A DNA stretch of 64,000 nucleotides from Ruminococcus bicirculans (ex Wegman et al. 2014) (GTDB lineage: Bacteria; Bacillota; Clostridia; Oscillospirales; Ruminococcaceae). The stretch's first letter is position 1. Each line of letters starts with the position of its first letter. Shown here piece after piece: positions 5,362 to 13,122 of the stretch. The stretch lies in the NCBI RefSeq assembly GCF_000723465.1, contig NZ_HF545616.1:1426001-1490000 (forward strand), given 5' to 3'. A program made the translations under genes and the position numbers. The notes beneath the pieces were generated by a model. The model did not search any database and had not been told where the DNA came from. It saw nothing but the letters and a program-made list of their open reading frames with translations.

Positions 5362-8300
5362 ATGGCTGCGAAGTATCAGCTAATCACAGAGCTGTATCGG
5401 CGTACAGGCGTTGCGGTTGCAAAAAATCCGCAGGCGTGGCAGGGCTTTCTGTCCTCTGCCTGCCGCAACTATAAATGCCGTTATGACGAACAGCTTTTAA
5501 TATACGCCCAACGCCCCGATGCTGTCGCCGTTGCGAAGCTCGAAACTTGGAACAGGCAGTTCAAGCGTTGGGTCAATAAGGACAGCAAGGGTATTGCCGT
5601 ATTTGACCCGAAAGGTCGCAGGAATACGCTGAAATACTATTTTGATGTGTCCGACACCCACGAGGGCTATTATGGCAGCCGCCCTGTTCCGATATGGCAG
5701 ATGGATGAGCGATACGAGCAGGCTGTTATGGAAAGGCTCTCGGACAGGTTTGGAGATGTGGAAAGCACTGACCTTGCTTCTGCCTTAATGGAAACGGCAA
5801 AGAACGCCGTGGAGGACAATCTGCAAGACTATTTTTCTCAGTTAAAGGACTGCACGAAAGACAGCTTTTTGGAAGAACTGGACGACTTTAATATAGAAGT
5901 CATTTACAGGCGGCTGGCAGCAAACAGCGTTGCTTTTATGCTGATCAGCCGCTGCGGTCTGGATACGAATGAGTTTTTTGACCGAGAGGATTTTGCGGAT
6001 ATTGTAAATTTCAATACCCCTGCAATGATAAACGCCATCGGCGTTGCCACGAGCGATATTGCGGAAATGGCGTTACGGGAAATCTCACAGTCTATCCGAA
6101 ATGTGCAAATGGCGGAAAAAGACCAGAATCGCACCTTTGCACAAAGAACGCAGGCTCAGTATGATAAAGGCAGACAACAACCCGAAAGGAGCGAATACAA
6201 TGAGCGAAATCACTTACAGCAGACAGGGGGATTATCTTATTCCCGACCTAACATTACCGACAGAGCCAGAGCTTCCGCTTGGCAGGTACGCTTTGATGCA
6301 CAGGGATTATCTGGAGAAGCACAAACGAGTGACCTATCTCAACCTGCTGACATCGGGCAGGCTGAACGGGCATCTGCACGAGGTAGAGCAGACAGCACTC
6401 CAGAGGTTGGAGCTTCTGACGAAGCAGCTCTCAGCCGAGCAGGGCGTGACAGAGGAACTGAAAGAGAAAGCTCCGATGCAGTGGGTCGGACTGATGAACA
6501 ACATCCGCAGCCAAGCGGAGGAAGTGATACTGACCGAACTGATTTACAAGTAAGCGTTGCCAAAGAGGATGAGGTCAGGGTCAATCTTCCAACCGTAGAT
6601 GAACAAATCGAAATGATAGCAAAAGCAGAGGACGAAAAAGCCTCTGCTTTTGCTATTTCCAAAGAAGATATTGACTCCGTACTTCAGAAAGGCAGTGGCG
6701 TTGCGGACGGAAAATACCGCATCTACCGCCAATTTCAAAAGGGCGAGGACAGACAGAAAAATATTGAGTTCCTTAAAAATGAGTATGGAACGGGCGGCGG
6801 TACGCACATCTTCCCCGATGGTTTCAGCGGTCATTCTTGGCATGACAGCAAAGGTCTTGCCATTGACCGAAACGGCACTTATACCAATCACGACCTTGTG
6901 TTGAAATGGTCACAGGTTGAAAAGCGTCTGCGTGAGCTGATTAAGGATAACCGCTATCTCAATCCGAAAGAAAAAGAGCATTATGCCGATTATCTGGAGA
7001 GCGTGTCAGCCCCTCAATATGAGATTGACACCCAGAGGAAAATAGCAAGGCAGCGTTTTATCGACGCCCACCGTGACCTGCCGCCTGCCGACAAACGGGA
7101 TACCCTTGCTTTGCGGCTATCTGACTTTATCCGTGACTTGGACAGGTACGAAAAAGACCTGTTATCTGTTGTGGAACGAAGCGACCTTGCAGATGTTACC
7201 GCCGAGCAAATGGAACAGCACTTATCCGACCCCTCAACCGTTCAACAGCTCATAGACTTTCTTGCACAGGTACAATGGAAAACGACCTCAGTTTTCAGCC
7301 GCAGTAATGGGTGGAAGTTTACCGAGGAATTAAGGGAGCTGCACCCACTCCGCTACCTCTACAATGAGGGCGATGTGGTGTATATCGGTGCGGATAAATA
7401 TGAGATTGCAACACTTACCGAGGAAAAGGTTTATCTGCAAAATGCCGAGTTTCCTATCTTGGGACAGGAATACAGCCGAGCCGACTTTGAAGAAAAGCTA
7501 ACGGAAAATCCTGCAAATGACCATCTGAAAGTGGTCGTAACCGAGAAACAGAGGACAGAAACACCGTCCGAGAAAAAGCAGGACGGAATACAGTTTTCTA
7601 TCGGTTTTTCCGAACACCCTGCCTTTTATGACAGACAGCTTAATGACCGCTATACAGATTTGAGCTTTGCTCTGGGTAATAAGCTGCTTGGTATTTTGGA
7701 CGAGAAACAGCACCGTGAGCGTGAGGGCGATAAAAATATCGGGTGGTATCACAAGACCGATTTTGTTATCAAGGCTGTTATCGGCGGCGAGGAATTTAAC
7801 TATGAAGGGCGGTTTGATATTGGCGATGGTGAGGGCGATTTAATTGCCCACATTAAGAATTTTTACGATTATGCCTTATCGCCAAAGGGCGAACAGCTAT
7901 ATGGAGATGACCGAGAAAGCCTGCTCCGTGGCAGAGATGAGTTTATCCCATTCTTGGAACAGCACACCGAGCTGACCCAAGAGGAGGAAAAGCTCCTTGA
8001 TGAGATTATGGCTACCGAAAGTGATTGGTACAGGACAGCCGAGGAAGCCGAAGAAAAACCACAGGCGAATGCCGATAAAGTGAATGGCTCAGAAGCTCCT
8101 GTCATTGAAATGGAGCAATCCACAGATGACCTCATAGGCAGGGAAATCATCATAGATAACCGTAAATATCTCATTGAGAGCATTGGGAAAATCAGCGGTG
8201 ATGTGTCCCTGCGTGACATCACATTCCAGAACAATGTGGGCTTTCCGATAAACCGAGTGGAGAAAATCGGCTATATCCAAAAGCTATTGGAACAGGAAAA

Positions 8301-11300
8301 AACCGTACCACCCGAAGAAAAAACGGAAACTCTTGCCACAGACCGTCATAATTTCCGTATTAACGATGACGCCATCGGTGTCGGCGGAGCAAAAGAAAAG
8401 TTCCGAAACAATATGGCGGCAATCAACCTGCTGCACGAGCTTGAAATCGAAAACCGCCTTGCCACACCCGAAGAACAGGAAGTCCTATCTCGATATGTCG
8501 GTTGGGGCGGTCTTTCTAAGGCATTTGATGAACACAATGCGGCGTGGGCGGAGGAATTTAAGGAGCTATATGCCAGCCTATCCCCAGAGGAATACCGTGC
8601 CGCTATGGAGTCAACGCTGACCGCTTTTTATACGCCGCCTGTTGTTATCAAGGCGATGTATGACGCACTTGACCGCCTGGGCTTTTCACAGGGCAATATC
8701 TTGGAGCCGTCCTGCGGTACAGGCAATTTCTTTGGTCTGCTTCCCGAAAGTATGCAAAACAGCAAGCTCCACGGCGTGGAAATCGACTCTCTCACAGGCA
8801 GGATTGCAAAGCAGCTCTACCAAAAAGCGAACATTGCCATTGAGGGCTTTGAGAAAACAAATCTCCCAGACGACCATTTTGATGTAGTCCTCGGTAATGT
8901 GCCTTTTGGGGAGATAAGGGTCAATGACAGCCGATACAACGCCCAGAAATTTCTCATACACGACTACTTTTTCGCAAAGGCTCTGGATAAAGTCTGTGCC
9001 GGCGGCGTTGTGATGTTCATTACCTCAAAGGGTACGATGGATAAAGCAAGTCCAGAGGTACGCAAGTATATTGCCCAGAGAGCCGAGCTTTTAGGTGCTA
9101 TCCGTCTGCCAGACAACACCTTTAAGGCAAACGCAGGCACGGAGGTCACGAGCGATATTCTTATCCTGCAAAAGCGTGACCGAGTGATGGATATAGAGCC
9201 AGACTGGGTACACCTTGATACGGACGAAAACGGTGTTACGATGAACAGATATTTTGTCGAACACCCCGAAATGGTGTTGGGCGAGATAAAGATGGAAAAC
9301 ACACGCTTTGGTACTTTCGAGCCTGTCTGTAAAGCCCGTAAGGATATACCACTTTCCGAGCTTCTGTCTAATGCAGTTCAGAGGATAAACGGCGAAATCC
9401 CAGAGCTTGATAATAGGGTTGATGAAATCTCCGATGAGCAGGAGCTTTCCGTTCCTGCTGACCCGAATGTGCGTAACTTCTCTTTTACTCTGGTGGACGG
9501 CAGGGTTTACTTCCGAGAGAATGACCGTATGCAACCTGCTTCTGTGTCGATGACCGCAGAAAACCGTATTAAGGGACTTATCCAAATTCGTGACTGTGTG
9601 CGTAAGCTCATAGAGTATCAGACCGATGATTACCCAGAGGAAATGATACGCACCGAGCAGGAAAACCTCAACCGTCTGTATGATGTTTATACCGCAAAAT
9701 ACGGTCTAATCAACAGCCGAGGAAACTATCTTGCTTTTGCTTCAGATGAGAGCTACTTCCTTCTATGTTCTCTGGAGGTGCTTGATGATGAGGGCAACTT
9801 CAAACGGAAGGCAGATATGTTCACAAAGCGGACTATCAAACCCCACCGAGAAGTAACTTCGGTTGAAACTGCAAGCGAAGCCCTTGCCCTCTCTATCGGA
9901 GAGAAAGCCCGTGTTGATTTGCCTTATATGGAGCAGCTCACAGGCAAAACGCAGGCTGAGCTTGTACAGAATTTACAAGGTATTATCTTCAAAGTACCGA
10001 ACTGTGAGCCTGTTTCCTATGTAGCCGCAGACGAGTATCTGTCAGGAAATGTCCGAAACAAGCTGACGGTTGCGGAGCTTGCTGCGAAGAATGACCCAGA
10101 GCTTGCAGTTAATGTGGAAGCCTTGGAAAAGGTCATTCCCAAAGACCTCTCGGCGGCGGAAATCTCTGTCCGTCTGGGTGCAACTTGGATACCGCAGGAA
10201 GATATACAGCGGTTTGTGATGGAGCTTTTAACTCCGTCAAGTTATGCTGCAGGCAGATTAAAGGTACGATACACCCCGATAAACGGAGACTGGTTCATAG
10301 AGAATAAAAGCTCCGATATGGGGAATGTAAAGGCGGACAGCACCTATGGTACGAAAAGAGCTTCCGCCTATCGCATTATTGAGGACACCTTAAATCTGCG
10401 TGACACCCGTATCTTTGATTATGTGTATGACGAACACGGCAATAAAAAAGCGGTGTTCAATGCAAAGGAAACTACGGCGGCACAGGCGAAGCAGGAAGTC
10501 ATCAAGCAGGCATTTCAGGATTGGATATGGAAAGACCCAGAACGGCGAAACCGTCTTGTCCGTTATTACAACGACACTTTTAACTCTGTGCGACCCCGTG
10601 AATATGACGGAAGCCATATCACTTTCGGAGGTATCAGTCCAGAAATCACACTAAGAGCACATCAAGTCAACGCCATCGCCCATATCCTTTATGGCGGCAA
10701 TACGCTCCTTGCCCATAAGGTGGGAGCAGGCAAAACCTTTGAAATGGTAGCCGCCGCACAGGAAAGCAAACGGCTCGGTTTATGTCAGAAATCTATGTTT
10801 GTTGTGCCGAATCATCTTGTCGGTCAGTGGGCTTCTGAGTATCTGCGGCTCTATCCGAGTGCAAATATCCTTGTTACAACAAAGCAGGATTTTGAAACAG
10901 GAAACCGCAAGAAGTTCTGCGGTAGGATTGCCACAGGCGACTATGATGCAGTCATTATTGGGCATTCTCAGTTTGAAAAAATTCCGATGAGCATAGAACG
11001 ACAGCGGGAACAGTTGGAGAAGCAGCTTGATGATATTGAGCGTGGCATTGATGATGTGCAGGCTTCCAAAGGCGAGCAGTTCACGGTCAAACAGCTAATG
11101 AAAACCCGAAAGGCAATCAAGACGAAGCTCGAAAAGCTTAACGACACCAAGCGTAAGGATACGGTTATCGACTTTGAACAGCTCGGCGTTGACAGGCTTT
11201 TCATTGATGAGAGCCATTTTTATAAGAATTTGTACCTCTACACCAAGATGCGAAATGTAGGCGGTATCGCCCAGACCGAAGCCCAGAAATCAAGCGACCT

Positions 11301-13122
11301 CTTTATGAAATGCCGCTATCTGGACGAAATCACGGGCAACCGTGGCACGGTTTTCGCAACGGGTACGCCTGTCAGCAATTCAATGGTTGAGCTGTACTCC
11401 GTTCAGAGGTACTTGCAGTATGACACCCTTGCACAGAATGGTTTGCAGCATTTTGACAGTTGGGCTTCTACCTTTGGAGAAACGGTTACAGCTCTGGAAT
11501 TAGCACCCGAAGGCACGAATTACCGAGCCAAGACGAGGTTTGCCAAGTTCTATAACCTGCCAGAGCTGATGCAGATGTTCCGTGAGGTGGCGGATATACA
11601 GACCGCCGATATGCTAAAGCTCCCCGTGCCAAAGGTCAATTACCACAATATTAAGACCAAGCCGAGCGAGATACAGACTGAGATGGTAGCTTCCCTTGCG
11701 AAGCGGGCTGAGAAAGTCAGGGCAAGGCTTGTCGAGCCGAACATCGACAATATGCTCAAGATAACCAATGACGGGCGGAAACTGGCTCTTGACCAGAGAA
11801 TGATTGACCCGATGCTGCCAGATGACCCAGACAGTAAAGTCAATGCCTGCGTGGATAATGTGTACCGTATCTGGGAGGAACACGCCGATACCAAAGCGAC
11901 ACAGCTTGTGTTCTGCGACCTGTCCACCCCGAAAAATGACGGTACTTTCAATGTCTACGACGATATGAGGGAGAAGCTGATAGCCCGTGGTATCCCGGCT
12001 GGGCAGATACGTTTTATTCACGAAGCGACCACCGATGCACAGAAAAAAGAGTTGTTCGGCAAGGTCAGAAGCGGCGAAGTCCGTGTGCTGCTCGGCTCTA
12101 CTCCGAAGATGGGAGCAGGTACGAATGTGCAGGACAGGCTCATAGCAATCCATAACCTTGATTGTCCGTGGCGTCCTTCCGACCTTGAACAAAGGCAGGG
12201 ACGTATTGAACGGCAGGGCAATATGTTCCCAGAGGTGGAGGTTTACCGCTATGTGACCGAGCAGACTTTTGATGCCTACCTCTATCAGTTGGTGGAGAGC
12301 AAACAGAAATTTATCAGCCAGATAATGACGAGCAAAAGCCCTGTCCGTTCTGCCGAAGATGTGGACGAGGTTGCCCTGTCCTTTGCGGAGGTTAAAATGC
12401 TTGCCACAGGCGATGCCCGTTTTAAGGAAAAGATGGATTTGGATATACAGGTTTCCAAGCTCCGAGTGTTAAAGCAGAGTTACCTTTCCGAGCATTACGA
12501 CCTTGAGGACAGAGTGCTGAAATACTATCCCCAGACCATTAAGGAGTATGAGGAACGCATTGCAGGCTATGAAAATGATGCAGCTCTTGCCGAGCAGCAC
12601 AAGCCGCAGGGTGAGGATAAGTTTTGCCCGATGACCCTAAAAGGCGTGACCTATACCGAAAAGGCAGATGCAGGCGAAATGCTCCTTGCAATCTGCAAGG
12701 ACTATCCGATGTCTGCACCTACCGAAATCGGCAGCTATCGAGGTTTCCAAATGGAGATTTATTATGATACCGTCAACGCCCATTACTGTATGAACCTTTG
12801 CGGAAAAGCAAAGCATAAGGTAGATTTAGGTGCTGATGCCCTCGGAAATCTGACCCGAATTGAAAACGAGCTGTCAAAGCTCCCTGCCAGACTGGAAGCT
12901 GCCAAGACCAAAAAGGCGGAAACTATCGCACAGCTTGAAACCGCAAAGGAGGAAATCAAGAAGCCTTTTGCCTTTGAAGATGAGTTGAAAGAAAAAGCGG
13001 AACGGCTGAACGCTCTTAACATTGAGCTGAATCTAAATGAAAAAGATACTTCCGTTATGGATACCGAGCCAGAGCAGACAGAAGAACAGCCCGAAAGAAA
13101 ATATGCAAGTCGGGAGAGATAA
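5362..13122 (+). CDS. Giant ICE protein: N6-adenine methylase-like plus SNF2-type helicase (2586 aa)
   Basis: The start is ATG 5362 after AAGGAGGTG. Residues 1-230 resemble the LtrC/ArdC-like N-terminal region of ICE helicases. Residues about 280-398 are a charged, Ser/Ala/Arg-rich linker read from the tnpV DNA in another frame. A Rossmann methylase core has motif I LEPSCGTGNF (about 1114) and motif IV as NVPF (1179-1182) instead of the usual NPPY/F. The helicase part has Walker A AHKVGAGKT (1784-1792), DESH (1949-1952), ATGTP (1999-2003), GSTPKMGAGTN (from 2245) and QRQGRIERQG (2277-2286), the SNF2/superfamily 2 set. A coiled coil ends the protein. Such proteins occur throughout Tn1549-type ICEs and are thought to protect or process the transferred DNA. 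Whether the methylase is active is uncertain. Confidence 0.88.
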   Translation: MAAKYQLITELYRRTGVAVAKNPQAWQGFLSSACRNYKCRYDEQLLIYAQRPDAVAVAKLETWNRQFKRWVNKDSKGIAVFDPKGRRNTLKYYFDVSDTHEGYYGSRPVPIWQMDERYEQAVMERLSDRFGDVESTDLASALMETAKNAVEDNLQDYFSQLKDCTKDSFLEELDDFNIEVIYRRLAANSVAFMLISRCGLDTNEFFDREDFADIVNFNTPAMINAIGVATSDIAEMALREISQSIRNVQMAEKDQNRTFAQRTQAQYDKGRQQPERSEYNERNHLQQTGGLSYSRPNITDRARASAWQVRFDAQGLSGEAQTSDLSQPADIGQAERASARGRADSTPEVGASDEAALSRAGRDRGTERESSDAVGRTDEQHPQPSGGSDTDRTDLQVSVAKEDEVRVNLPTVDEQIEMIAKAEDEKASAFAISKEDIDSVLQKGSGVADGKYRIYRQFQKGEDRQKNIEFLKNEYGTGGGTHIFPDGFSGHSWHDSKGLAIDRNGTYTNHDLVLKWSQVEKRLRELIKDNRYLNPKEKEHYADYLESVSAPQYEIDTQRKIARQRFIDAHRDLPPADKRDTLALRLSDFIRDLDRYEKDLLSVVERSDLADVTAEQMEQHLSDPSTVQQLIDFLAQVQWKTTSVFSRSNGWKFTEELRELHPLRYLYNEGDVVYIGADKYEIATLTEEKVYLQNAEFPILGQEYSRADFEEKLTENPANDHLKVVVTEKQRTETPSEKKQDGIQFSIGFSEHPAFYDRQLNDRYTDLSFALGNKLLGILDEKQHREREGDKNIGWYHKTDFVIKAVIGGEEFNYEGRFDIGDGEGDLIAHIKNFYDYALSPKGEQLYGDDRESLLRGRDEFIPFLEQHTELTQEEEKLLDEIMATESDWYRTAEEAEEKPQANADKVNGSEAPVIEMEQSTDDLIGREIIIDNRKYLIESIGKISGDVSLRDITFQNNVGFPINRVEKIGYIQKLLEQEKTVPPEEKTETLATDRHNFRINDDAIGVGGAKEKFRNNMAAINLLHELEIENRLATPEEQEVLSRYVGWGGLSKAFDEHNAAWAEEFKELYASLSPEEYRAAMESTLTAFYTPPVVIKAMYDALDRLGFSQGNILEPSCGTGNFFGLLPESMQNSKLHGVEIDSLTGRIAKQLYQKANIAIEGFEKTNLPDDHFDVVLGNVPFGEIRVNDSRYNAQKFLIHDYFFAKALDKVCAGGVVMFITSKGTMDKASPEVRKYIAQRAELLGAIRLPDNTFKANAGTEVTSDILILQKRDRVMDIEPDWVHLDTDENGVTMNRYFVEHPEMVLGEIKMENTRFGTFEPVCKARKDIPLSELLSNAVQRINGEIPELDNRVDEISDEQELSVPADPNVRNFSFTLVDGRVYFRENDRMQPASVSMTAENRIKGLIQIRDCVRKLIEYQTDDYPEEMIRTEQENLNRLYDVYTAKYGLINSRGNYLAFASDESYFLLCSLEVLDDEGNFKRKADMFTKRTIKPHREVTSVETASEALALSIGEKARVDLPYMEQLTGKTQAELVQNLQGIIFKVPNCEPVSYVAADEYLSGNVRNKLTVAELAAKNDPELAVNVEALEKVIPKDLSAAEISVRLGATWIPQEDIQRFVMELLTPSSYAAGRLKVRYTPINGDWFIENKSSDMGNVKADSTYGTKRASAYRIIEDTLNLRDTRIFDYVYDEHGNKKAVFNAKETTAAQAKQEVIKQAFQDWIWKDPERRNRLVRYYNDTFNSVRPREYDGSHITFGGISPEITLRAHQVNAIAHILYGGNTLLAHKVGAGKTFEMVAAAQESKRLGLCQKSMFVVPNHLVGQWASEYLRLYPSANILVTTKQDFETGNRKKFCGRIATGDYDAVIIGHSQFEKIPMSIERQREQLEKQLDDIERGIDDVQASKGEQFTVKQLMKTRKAIKTKLEKLNDTKRKDTVIDFEQLGVDRLFIDESHFYKNLYLYTKMRNVGGIAQTEAQKSSDLFMKCRYLDEITGNRGTVFATGTPVSNSMVELYSVQRYLQYDTLAQNGLQHFDSWASTFGETVTALELAPEGTNYRAKTRFAKFYNLPELMQMFREVADIQTADMLKLPVPKVNYHNIKTKPSEIQTEMVASLAKRAEKVRARLVEPNIDNMLKITNDGRKLALDQRMIDPMLPDDPDSKVNACVDNVYRIWEEHADTKATQLVFCDLSTPKNDGTFNVYDDMREKLIARGIPAGQIRFIHEATTDAQKKELFGKVRSGEVRVLLGSTPKMGAGTNVQDRLIAIHNLDCPWRPSDLEQRQGRIERQGNMFPEVEVYRYVTEQTFDAYLYQLVESKQKFISQIMTSKSPVRSAEDVDEVALSFAEVKMLATGDARFKEKMDLDIQVSKLRVLKQSYLSEHYDLEDRVLKYYPQTIKEYEERIAGYENDAALAEQHKPQGEDKFCPMTLKGVTYTEKADAGEMLLAICKDYPMSAPTEIGSYRGFQMEIYYDTVNAHYCMNLCGKAKHKVDLGADALGNLTRIENELSKLPARLEAAKTKKAETIAQLETAKEEIKKPFAFEDELKEKAERLNALNIELNLNEKDTSVMDTEPEQTEEQPERKYASRER
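6200..6553 (+). CDS. tnpV: TnpV-family protein nested in another frame of the helicase gene
   Basis: A 117-residue frame starts at ATG 6200 behind AGGAG (6187-6191) and ends at 6553, wholly inside the helicase gene but in a different frame of the same strand. The protein reads MSEITYSRQGDYLIPDLTLP at its start and contains LNGHLHEVEQ and MQWVGLMNNIRSQAEEVILTEL, which I recognise as the transposon-encoded TnpV family. TnpV is a small accessory protein of mobile elements with no established biochemical role. The good ribosome site, full family length and conserved motifs argue for real translation. The helicase frame across the same DNA is low-complexity, as expected if tnpV is the frame under selection. 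Confidence 0.75.
   Translation: MSEITYSRQGDYLIPDLTLPTEPELPLGRYALMHRDYLEKHKRVTYLNLLTSGRLNGHLHEVEQTALQRLELLTKQLSAEQGVTEELKEKAPMQWVGLMNNIRSQAEEVILTELIYK

Follow-up and report, generated by a model that had tools for sequence, protein, structure and literature searches.

The window analysed here is a stretch of 64,000 nucleotides of Ruminococcus bicirculans DNA (contig NZ_HF545616.1, positions 1,426,001 to 1,490,000). In it, a tnpV ORF lies wholly within a 2586-codon methylase/SNF2 ORF of a mobile element, on the same strand (Table 1). The tnpV ATG starts at the second base of helicase codon 280 and the overlap covers helicase codons 280–398; tnpV codon positions 1, 2 and 3 thus coincide with helicase positions 2, 3 and 1. 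A sequence-only reading of the window had described a 117-residue frame of full family length, with its own ribosome site, inside the 2586-codon gene. The ORF positions, the AAAGGAG motif and the Pfam alignment bear this out: the protein matches PF14198 with 144.9 bits against a curated cut-off of 27, over model positions 1–111 of 111. A close TnpV occurs in the window's genome as a single copy, and the Pfam model adds weaker ones, one of them above the cut-off.

Table 1. Features of the nested tnpV locus in the window, and plasmid loci (coordinates of each locus) with an incompletely recorded gene pair
Feature	Position	Strand	Remarks
tnpV	6200..6553	+	117 codons and a stop codon; +1 to the helicase frame; Pfam PF14198 E 1.1e-42; dNN/dSN 0.172; AlphaFold2 pLDDT 89.7
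tnpV Shine-Dalgarno AAAGGAG	6185..6191	+	8 nt upstream of ATG; AGGAG kept in 83/83 loci
Host gene (2586 aa): ArdC-like N-terminal domain, linker, LPD25, methyltransferase, SNF2 helicase	5362..13122	+	
Predicted folded N-terminal domain, helicase residues 1-271	5362..6174	+	AlphaFold2 blocks mostly pLDDT >90; dN/dS 0.118
Helicase-frame linker (predicted disordered), residues 279-404, nearly co-extensive with tnpV	6196..6573	+	pLDDT <50; dNN/dNS 0.89; stops over tnpV 0 in 147/147 distinct linked genes
PLSDB plasmid loci with one gene of the pair cut, missing or unlisted	L255 7986-15662; L254 7965-14222; L256 7959-16501		

AlphaFold2 modelling of TnpV (65 alignment rows) gave a confident beta hairpin plus helices. 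The TnpV proteins of Tn4451 and of Clostridium difficile transposons, which belong to the same family (PF14198) as the full-length protein of the window, are postulated to aid excision by their likeness to lambda Xis; in the accessible text of that report they are encoded by a separate gene and nesting is not mentioned (PMC3158075). Searches of the PDB returned 5 matches by sequence, at E 0.039 or worse and none an excisionase, and 31 by predicted fold, none at E 0.001 or better and none titled excisionase. These structure searches gave no usable lead to a function of TnpV, and PADLOC had no match to the protein.

On the host side, AlphaFold2 modelling of helicase residues 1–465 (56 rows) gave a confident N-terminal domain up to about residue 271. 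Its top PDB folds were ArdC of R388 (including 6i89), with probabilities of 0.98 and 0.82 but weak E values of 0.035 and 0.041; by sequence, the N-terminus had no PDB match up to E 0.1. PADLOC matched the helicase partially to the helicase and methyltransferase models of defence systems. The low-confidence stretch (residues 279–404) is nearly the overlap itself, and the segment that the overlap encodes in the helicase frame is predicted to be an unstructured linker. The low pLDDT and the hydrophilic peptide agree with the disorder-like character first described for this frame. The peptide is, however, only slightly more hydrophilic than versions obtained by permuting synonymous TnpV codons (−1.22, compared with −1.16 for the permuted versions, with the lower value in 102 of 116 genes), and we therefore consider the predicted disorder to be largely a by-product of reading TnpV DNA in the helicase frame.

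The start of tnpV is strongly conserved. In a tight clade of 83 loci, ATG and AGGAG are present in 83/83 and the stop is at the same position in 82/83. Among the nested tnpV genes whose start is reached by the profile, ATG with a Shine-Dalgarno motif occurs in 106/108, and stand-alone tnpV genes have the same type of start. These features bear on the idea that translation shifts out of the helicase frame immediately upstream of the overlap, yielding an ArdC–TnpV fusion and no free TnpV. Such frameshifting would have room to act in the window, where the TnpV frame is also open upstream of its ATG (173 aa, against 117 aa for the gene). However, the Shine-Dalgarno motif and ATG stand at start-site spacing in 83/83 loci, the TnpV frame is open for only 1–15 codons before the profile match in 23/70 loci of the family sample and 13/19 of the phylum sample described below, and stand-alone genes share the start type. 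We regard frameshifting as very improbable.

The two frames of the overlap differ sharply in their constraint. In the tight clade, heterozygosity by tnpV codon position was 0.229 at position 3, 0.116 at position 1 and 0.078 at position 2; the last is the helicase wobble position, which is thus the least variable. This ordering follows TnpV codon positions, as in a coding frame, and leaves next to no likelihood to the notion that conservation here reflects a site in RNA or DNA instead of a protein. We estimated dN/dS in the overlap by an OLGenie-like count (own implementation, Jukes-Cantor, bootstrap over codons). For 63 distinct sequences of the tight clade, the TnpV frame had a dNN/dSN of 0.172 (0.107–0.261) and the helicase frame a dNN/dNS of 0.888 (0.608–1.307). 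The non-coding third frame scored a dNN/dNS of 0.649 (0.436–1.011) in the same set and 0.680 in a set of 116 nested genes, so that the method carries a bias of 0.65–0.68 in size; in the 116 genes, the TnpV frame had 0.194 and the helicase frame 0.931. The helicase-equivalent frame of 61 stand-alone tnpV genes gave 1.043 (0.875–1.261), and the helicase frame of a distant nested set 1.259 (1.047–1.490), the latter at high divergence.

Single-frame estimates showed the same pattern. The helicase frame had a dN/dS of 0.118 before the overlap (nucleotides −799 to −100 from the tnpV start) and 0.204 after it; within the overlap, the value was 0.175 in the TnpV frame and 1.57 when read as helicase. 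The dS of TnpV (0.472) was not below those of the helicase (0.413 and 0.321). No amino-acid constraint on the helicase frame was found in the overlap (dNN/dNS 0.89–0.93, with intervals including 1), and the dNN/dSN and dNN/dNS values rule out the helicase frame as the constrained one. The sequence-only reading had named constraint on the helicase frame alone as the outcome that would count against its proposal; the codon-position rates of both frames gave the reverse, with the constraint in the TnpV frame. Selection holds the TnpV amino acids, but in the helicase frame it holds only openness.

This openness is visible in the choice of TnpV codons. A stop arises in the host frame when a TnpV codon ending in T stands before AA, AG or GA. 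Since an earlier split into nested and stand-alone genes had used host-frame stops as its criterion, its stop counts (0/3873 against 299/1941) were circular, and the genes were recounted with a helicase N-terminal match upstream as the sole criterion of linkage, excluding 7 genes too near a sequence end. Every one of the 147 distinct linked genes is in phase +1 and free of stops in both the host and the TnpV frame, whereas 71/73 unlinked genes contain 1–11 host-frame stops. The two stop-free unlinked genes are a stand-alone tnpV with a stop-free equivalent frame of 162 aa (L289) and a tnpV within an open helicase frame that lacks a detectable N-terminus (L041). Stop-forming T-ending codons before AA, AG or GA numbered 0/4966 in linked genes against 344/2320 in unlinked ones, and in other contexts T-ending codons numbered 1699/11529 against 1387/5802. 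Because T-ending codons are scarcer in linked genes elsewhere too, a general codon shift explains part of the stop avoidance, but only part.

Randomised versions of the gene point in the same direction. Recoding the window's TnpV with helicase codon usage gave a mean of 7.3 host-frame stops and 0/5000 stop-free draws; with stand-alone tnpV usage, the mean was 6.3 and P(0) 0.0004. Permuting the gene's own synonymous codons gave a mean of 4.15 and P(0) 0.0024, and recoding with pooled nested-gene usage, the mildest null, gave 3.3 and P(0) 0.026. Gene by gene, with the stop-based classes, permutation led to an expectation of 2.77 stops per nested gene (mean P(0) 0.057), and stand-alone genes, with 4.84 stops observed against 6.49 permuted, were somewhat depleted as well.

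These counts also bear on whether only TnpV is translated in the overlap, the helicase being made as separate proteins and the open frame being a by-product of composition. Such a state is compatible with the unconstrained amino-acid sequence of the helicase frame over tnpV and with the general scarcity of T-ending codons in linked genes. On the other hand, composition leaves the complete absence of T-ending codons from stop-forming contexts in linked genes unaccounted for; the helicase frame is stop-free over tnpV in 82/82 loci found by TnpV alone (L031–L112); and it is constrained on both sides of the overlap. Separate helicase proteins accordingly have only a slim chance of being the correct description.

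Taken together, we consider it probable, at roughly 0.85, that tnpV is an embedded gene with independent initiation at 6200 and that, translated in the helicase frame, the segment yields a disordered tether with no stop. Ribosomes would start at tnpV's own Shine-Dalgarno motif and ATG within the helicase message and make a folded TnpV of 117 aa. Ribosomes coming from the helicase start would pass through the segment in their own frame and make a disordered tether that joins the ArdC-like domain to the methylase/helicase body, with selection keeping the TnpV amino acids and the helicase frame merely open. We infer that both products are translated; the segment thus appears to have two uses, as the gene of a small folded protein and as an open, disordered tether. 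The weakest step of this explanation is the purpose of the nesting. It may tie TnpV to the helicase as both act in the same conjugative DNA-processing step, a tentative proposal to which we give slightly less than an even chance; TnpV having no confident PDB match, it is based on the co-divergence of the two proteins described below.

The arrangement is widespread. The 82 loci found by TnpV-seeded scans, being the best 80 of 116 genome loci and 2 viral loci, are biased to close relatives; one of them, in Blautia glucerasea (L031), is nearly identical to the window's copy. Eleven of them (L041, L051, L064, L066, L076, L081, L094, L099, L103, L110 and L111) carry a second, stand-alone tnpV about 6.4–9.2 kb downstream of the nested one and about 45–54% identical to the window's TnpV; these second copies contain 1–8 stops each in the helicase-equivalent frame, against 0 in the nested copies. 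Searching 297 genomes of the family with the helicase N-terminus alone matched 73 genomes, and 77 loci were examined: 30 returned by the search, 39 picked at E values up to about 1.5e-8, and a further 8 with short frames. A TnpV or TnpV-like frame is nested in the host frame at the same place, always +1, in 70/77. This tally used two profiles, the second of which was built from divergent nested ORFs, with 5 of its 7 members (L171, L173, L178, L179 and L180) among the 70. Pfam TnpV E values for divergent nested ORFs were 4.5e-10 (L171), 4.7e-8 (L173), 9e-6 (L178, scoring just below the curated cut-off) and 4.5e-8 (L180). The 7 non-nested loci comprise 4 whose frames end before the site (L310, L312, L314 and L315) and 3 long helicases (L175, L177 and L181).

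In the phylum sample, the helicase N-terminus matched 24 of 398 genomes, and 19 of the 28 loci examined were nested, again always +1; the other 9 matched weakly (17–40 bits), and their frames do not exceed 750 aa. Of the 16 non-nested loci of both samples, 13 are thus short, truncated or weak matches. Nested TnpV is present in Cohnella (own profile, 100 bits), in Virgibacillus (Pfam TnpV 2e-21) and, in a gene resembling a cut-off helicase, in Listeria innocua (Pfam TnpV 1.1e-6); the ArdC-type gene of Terribacillus contains no nested TnpV-like ORF. When the same 398 genomes were searched with PF14198, 31 matched, with about 60 matches, and 42 loci were examined (30 returned and 12 chosen; L281 and L298 overlap): 15 were nested, all with a helicase N-terminus, 24 were stand-alone, none with one, and 3 had no hit. 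Nesting thus extends to helicases whose N-termini are only about 23% identical, and it occurs in several of the phylum's families and in named Clostridia and Bacilli. Such an overlap had initially been thought rare; among the loci examined for this gene family it is the usual state. A search for helicase genes lacking the segment, proposed at the same time, yielded the three long ones, and the nested gene is therefore not indispensable inside the helicase gene. At another locus (L151, 2540–3397), the helicase frame is shortened and is followed, in another frame, by an ORF that by eye resembles a site-specific recombinase, which would fit a small element lodged in the helicase gene.

The nested TnpV and the helicase have diverged in step. 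Distances between helicase N-termini and between nested TnpV proteins correlate with a rho of 0.87 (n=89), and 0/500 permutations were as high. In a tree of helicase N-termini (71 rows), L175 lies inside a nested clade with support of 100/100 and 99/96, and because of this place it has probably lost its nested gene; L177 and L181 are weakly placed. A stand-alone TnpV-like gene lies 14 kb before L175 in the same genome and shares 57% identity with the nested TnpV of L171, a neighbour of L175 in the tree, and we infer that this gene and the L175 helicase belong to one element. No TnpV was found within 20 kb on each side of L177, nor on most of the contig of L181. In a TnpV tree, the split into nested and stand-alone genes needs 5 changes, 3 of them forced, and the deep lineages are nested with stand-alone ones among them; this tree has too few columns, unsettled bootstrap values and a midpoint root. 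A recent local insertion of tnpV is ruled out, as nesting is common to several families, and the spread among relatives indicates that the arrangement is an ancient embedded gene.

It had been proposed that an inserted tnpV left the host frame open and became a disordered linker. The part of this proposal in which a single segment is used in two frames, with a predicted disordered linker on the helicase side, agrees with our results; entry into an existing helicase gene is only a possibility, as nesting reaches down to about 23% identity and the distances of the two proteins correlate. An insertion long ago, by a stand-alone tnpV into a pre-existing helicase gene, concerns the origin only and is compatible with the embedded, dually read gene. 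In favour of such an entry, tnpV often occurs as a stand-alone gene, some helicases have neither nested gene nor linker (L175, L177 and L181), and TnpV is the folded, constrained frame; against it, L175 probably represents a loss, and the most divergent TnpV lineages are nested with stand-alone ones among them, as far as midpoint roots can tell. We therefore hold ancient insertion to be a possible but doubtful origin. Another, somewhat less likely scenario is that the embedded state is the old home: TnpV would have been born or fixed in the ArdC–SNF2 linker of an early conjugative element as an obligate partner of that protein, and transposon tnpV genes (e.g. that of Tn4451) would be escapees. 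The window's own genome would then show one escape, in the form of the helicase that lost its nested gene and the stand-alone copy 14 kb away.

Embedded genes in the +1 frame are already known. The phage spanin genes Rz/Rz1 occur in embedded, overlapped and separated versions, with the o-spanin genes mostly unannotated, according to the accessible text of PMC6139136, and, as in the embedded version, tnpV is a small gene wholly inside a larger one on the same strand in the +1 frame. The tnpV pair shares with Rz/Rz1 the position inside the host gene in another frame, start signals of its own, as judged from sequence, and constraint on the inner frame. It differs in the overlap, where the host frame shows stop avoidance only and no amino-acid constraint. 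Moreover, while the spanins are known partners in lysis, the host here is a helicase gene of 2586 aa, stand-alone relatives of TnpV are numerous and the partnership is putative.

In streptococcal conjugative elements, snf2 is known as a place where smaller, tnpV-carrying elements insert, a situation different from nesting, as far as described in the accessible text of PMC9815147. In the one Streptococcus agalactiae snf2 record inspected, a +1 ORF of 136 aa follows AGGAGG and covers residues 264–400 of the open SNF2 frame. It is weakly TnpV-like (Pfam TnpV E 0.013, below the cut-off; hhalign probability 53.6), DUF2972 matches it better (E 0.0025), and its kinship is unsure. The TnpV literature searched, in the text available and mostly from papers open without subscription (including PMC3158075, PMC11913394, PMC9815147, PMC10782964 and PMC6435816), yielded no report of tnpV nested in a helicase gene. 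None of the papers searched described this pair, how far it extends among relatives or the difference in constraint between its frames.

If the dual reading is correct, the pair would be a widespread and old same-strand gene-in-gene arrangement in bacteria with unequal constraint, on sequence in one frame and on mere openness in the other. It would be a system in which to study the maintenance of dual coding, and would connect TnpV with a conjugative helicase. Some gaps in the annotation of mobile elements may have the same cause, as on three PLSDB plasmids (Table 1). In the PLSDB gene tables, which are stated to be incomplete, TnpV is listed for a Monoglobus plasmid and the SNF2 gene begins only at 11097; for a Cohnella plasmid, TnpV and an antisense ORF are listed and the helicase is absent; and for a Ruminococcus albus plasmid, the helicase is listed and TnpV is absent.

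Several minor observations concern the surroundings of these genes. Just left of the window (L317, 15277–19094), a uracil-5-methyltransferase gene is followed by ParA and ParB genes, an arrangement that we take to resemble elements inserted at a rum-type site. At L199, the TnpV stretch runs in frame into a long frame that looks, by eye, like a membrane protein, with its last residues replaced. In a plasmid and a phage record (L223 and L224), a stand-alone tnpV sequence lies upstream of tetracycline-resistance genes.
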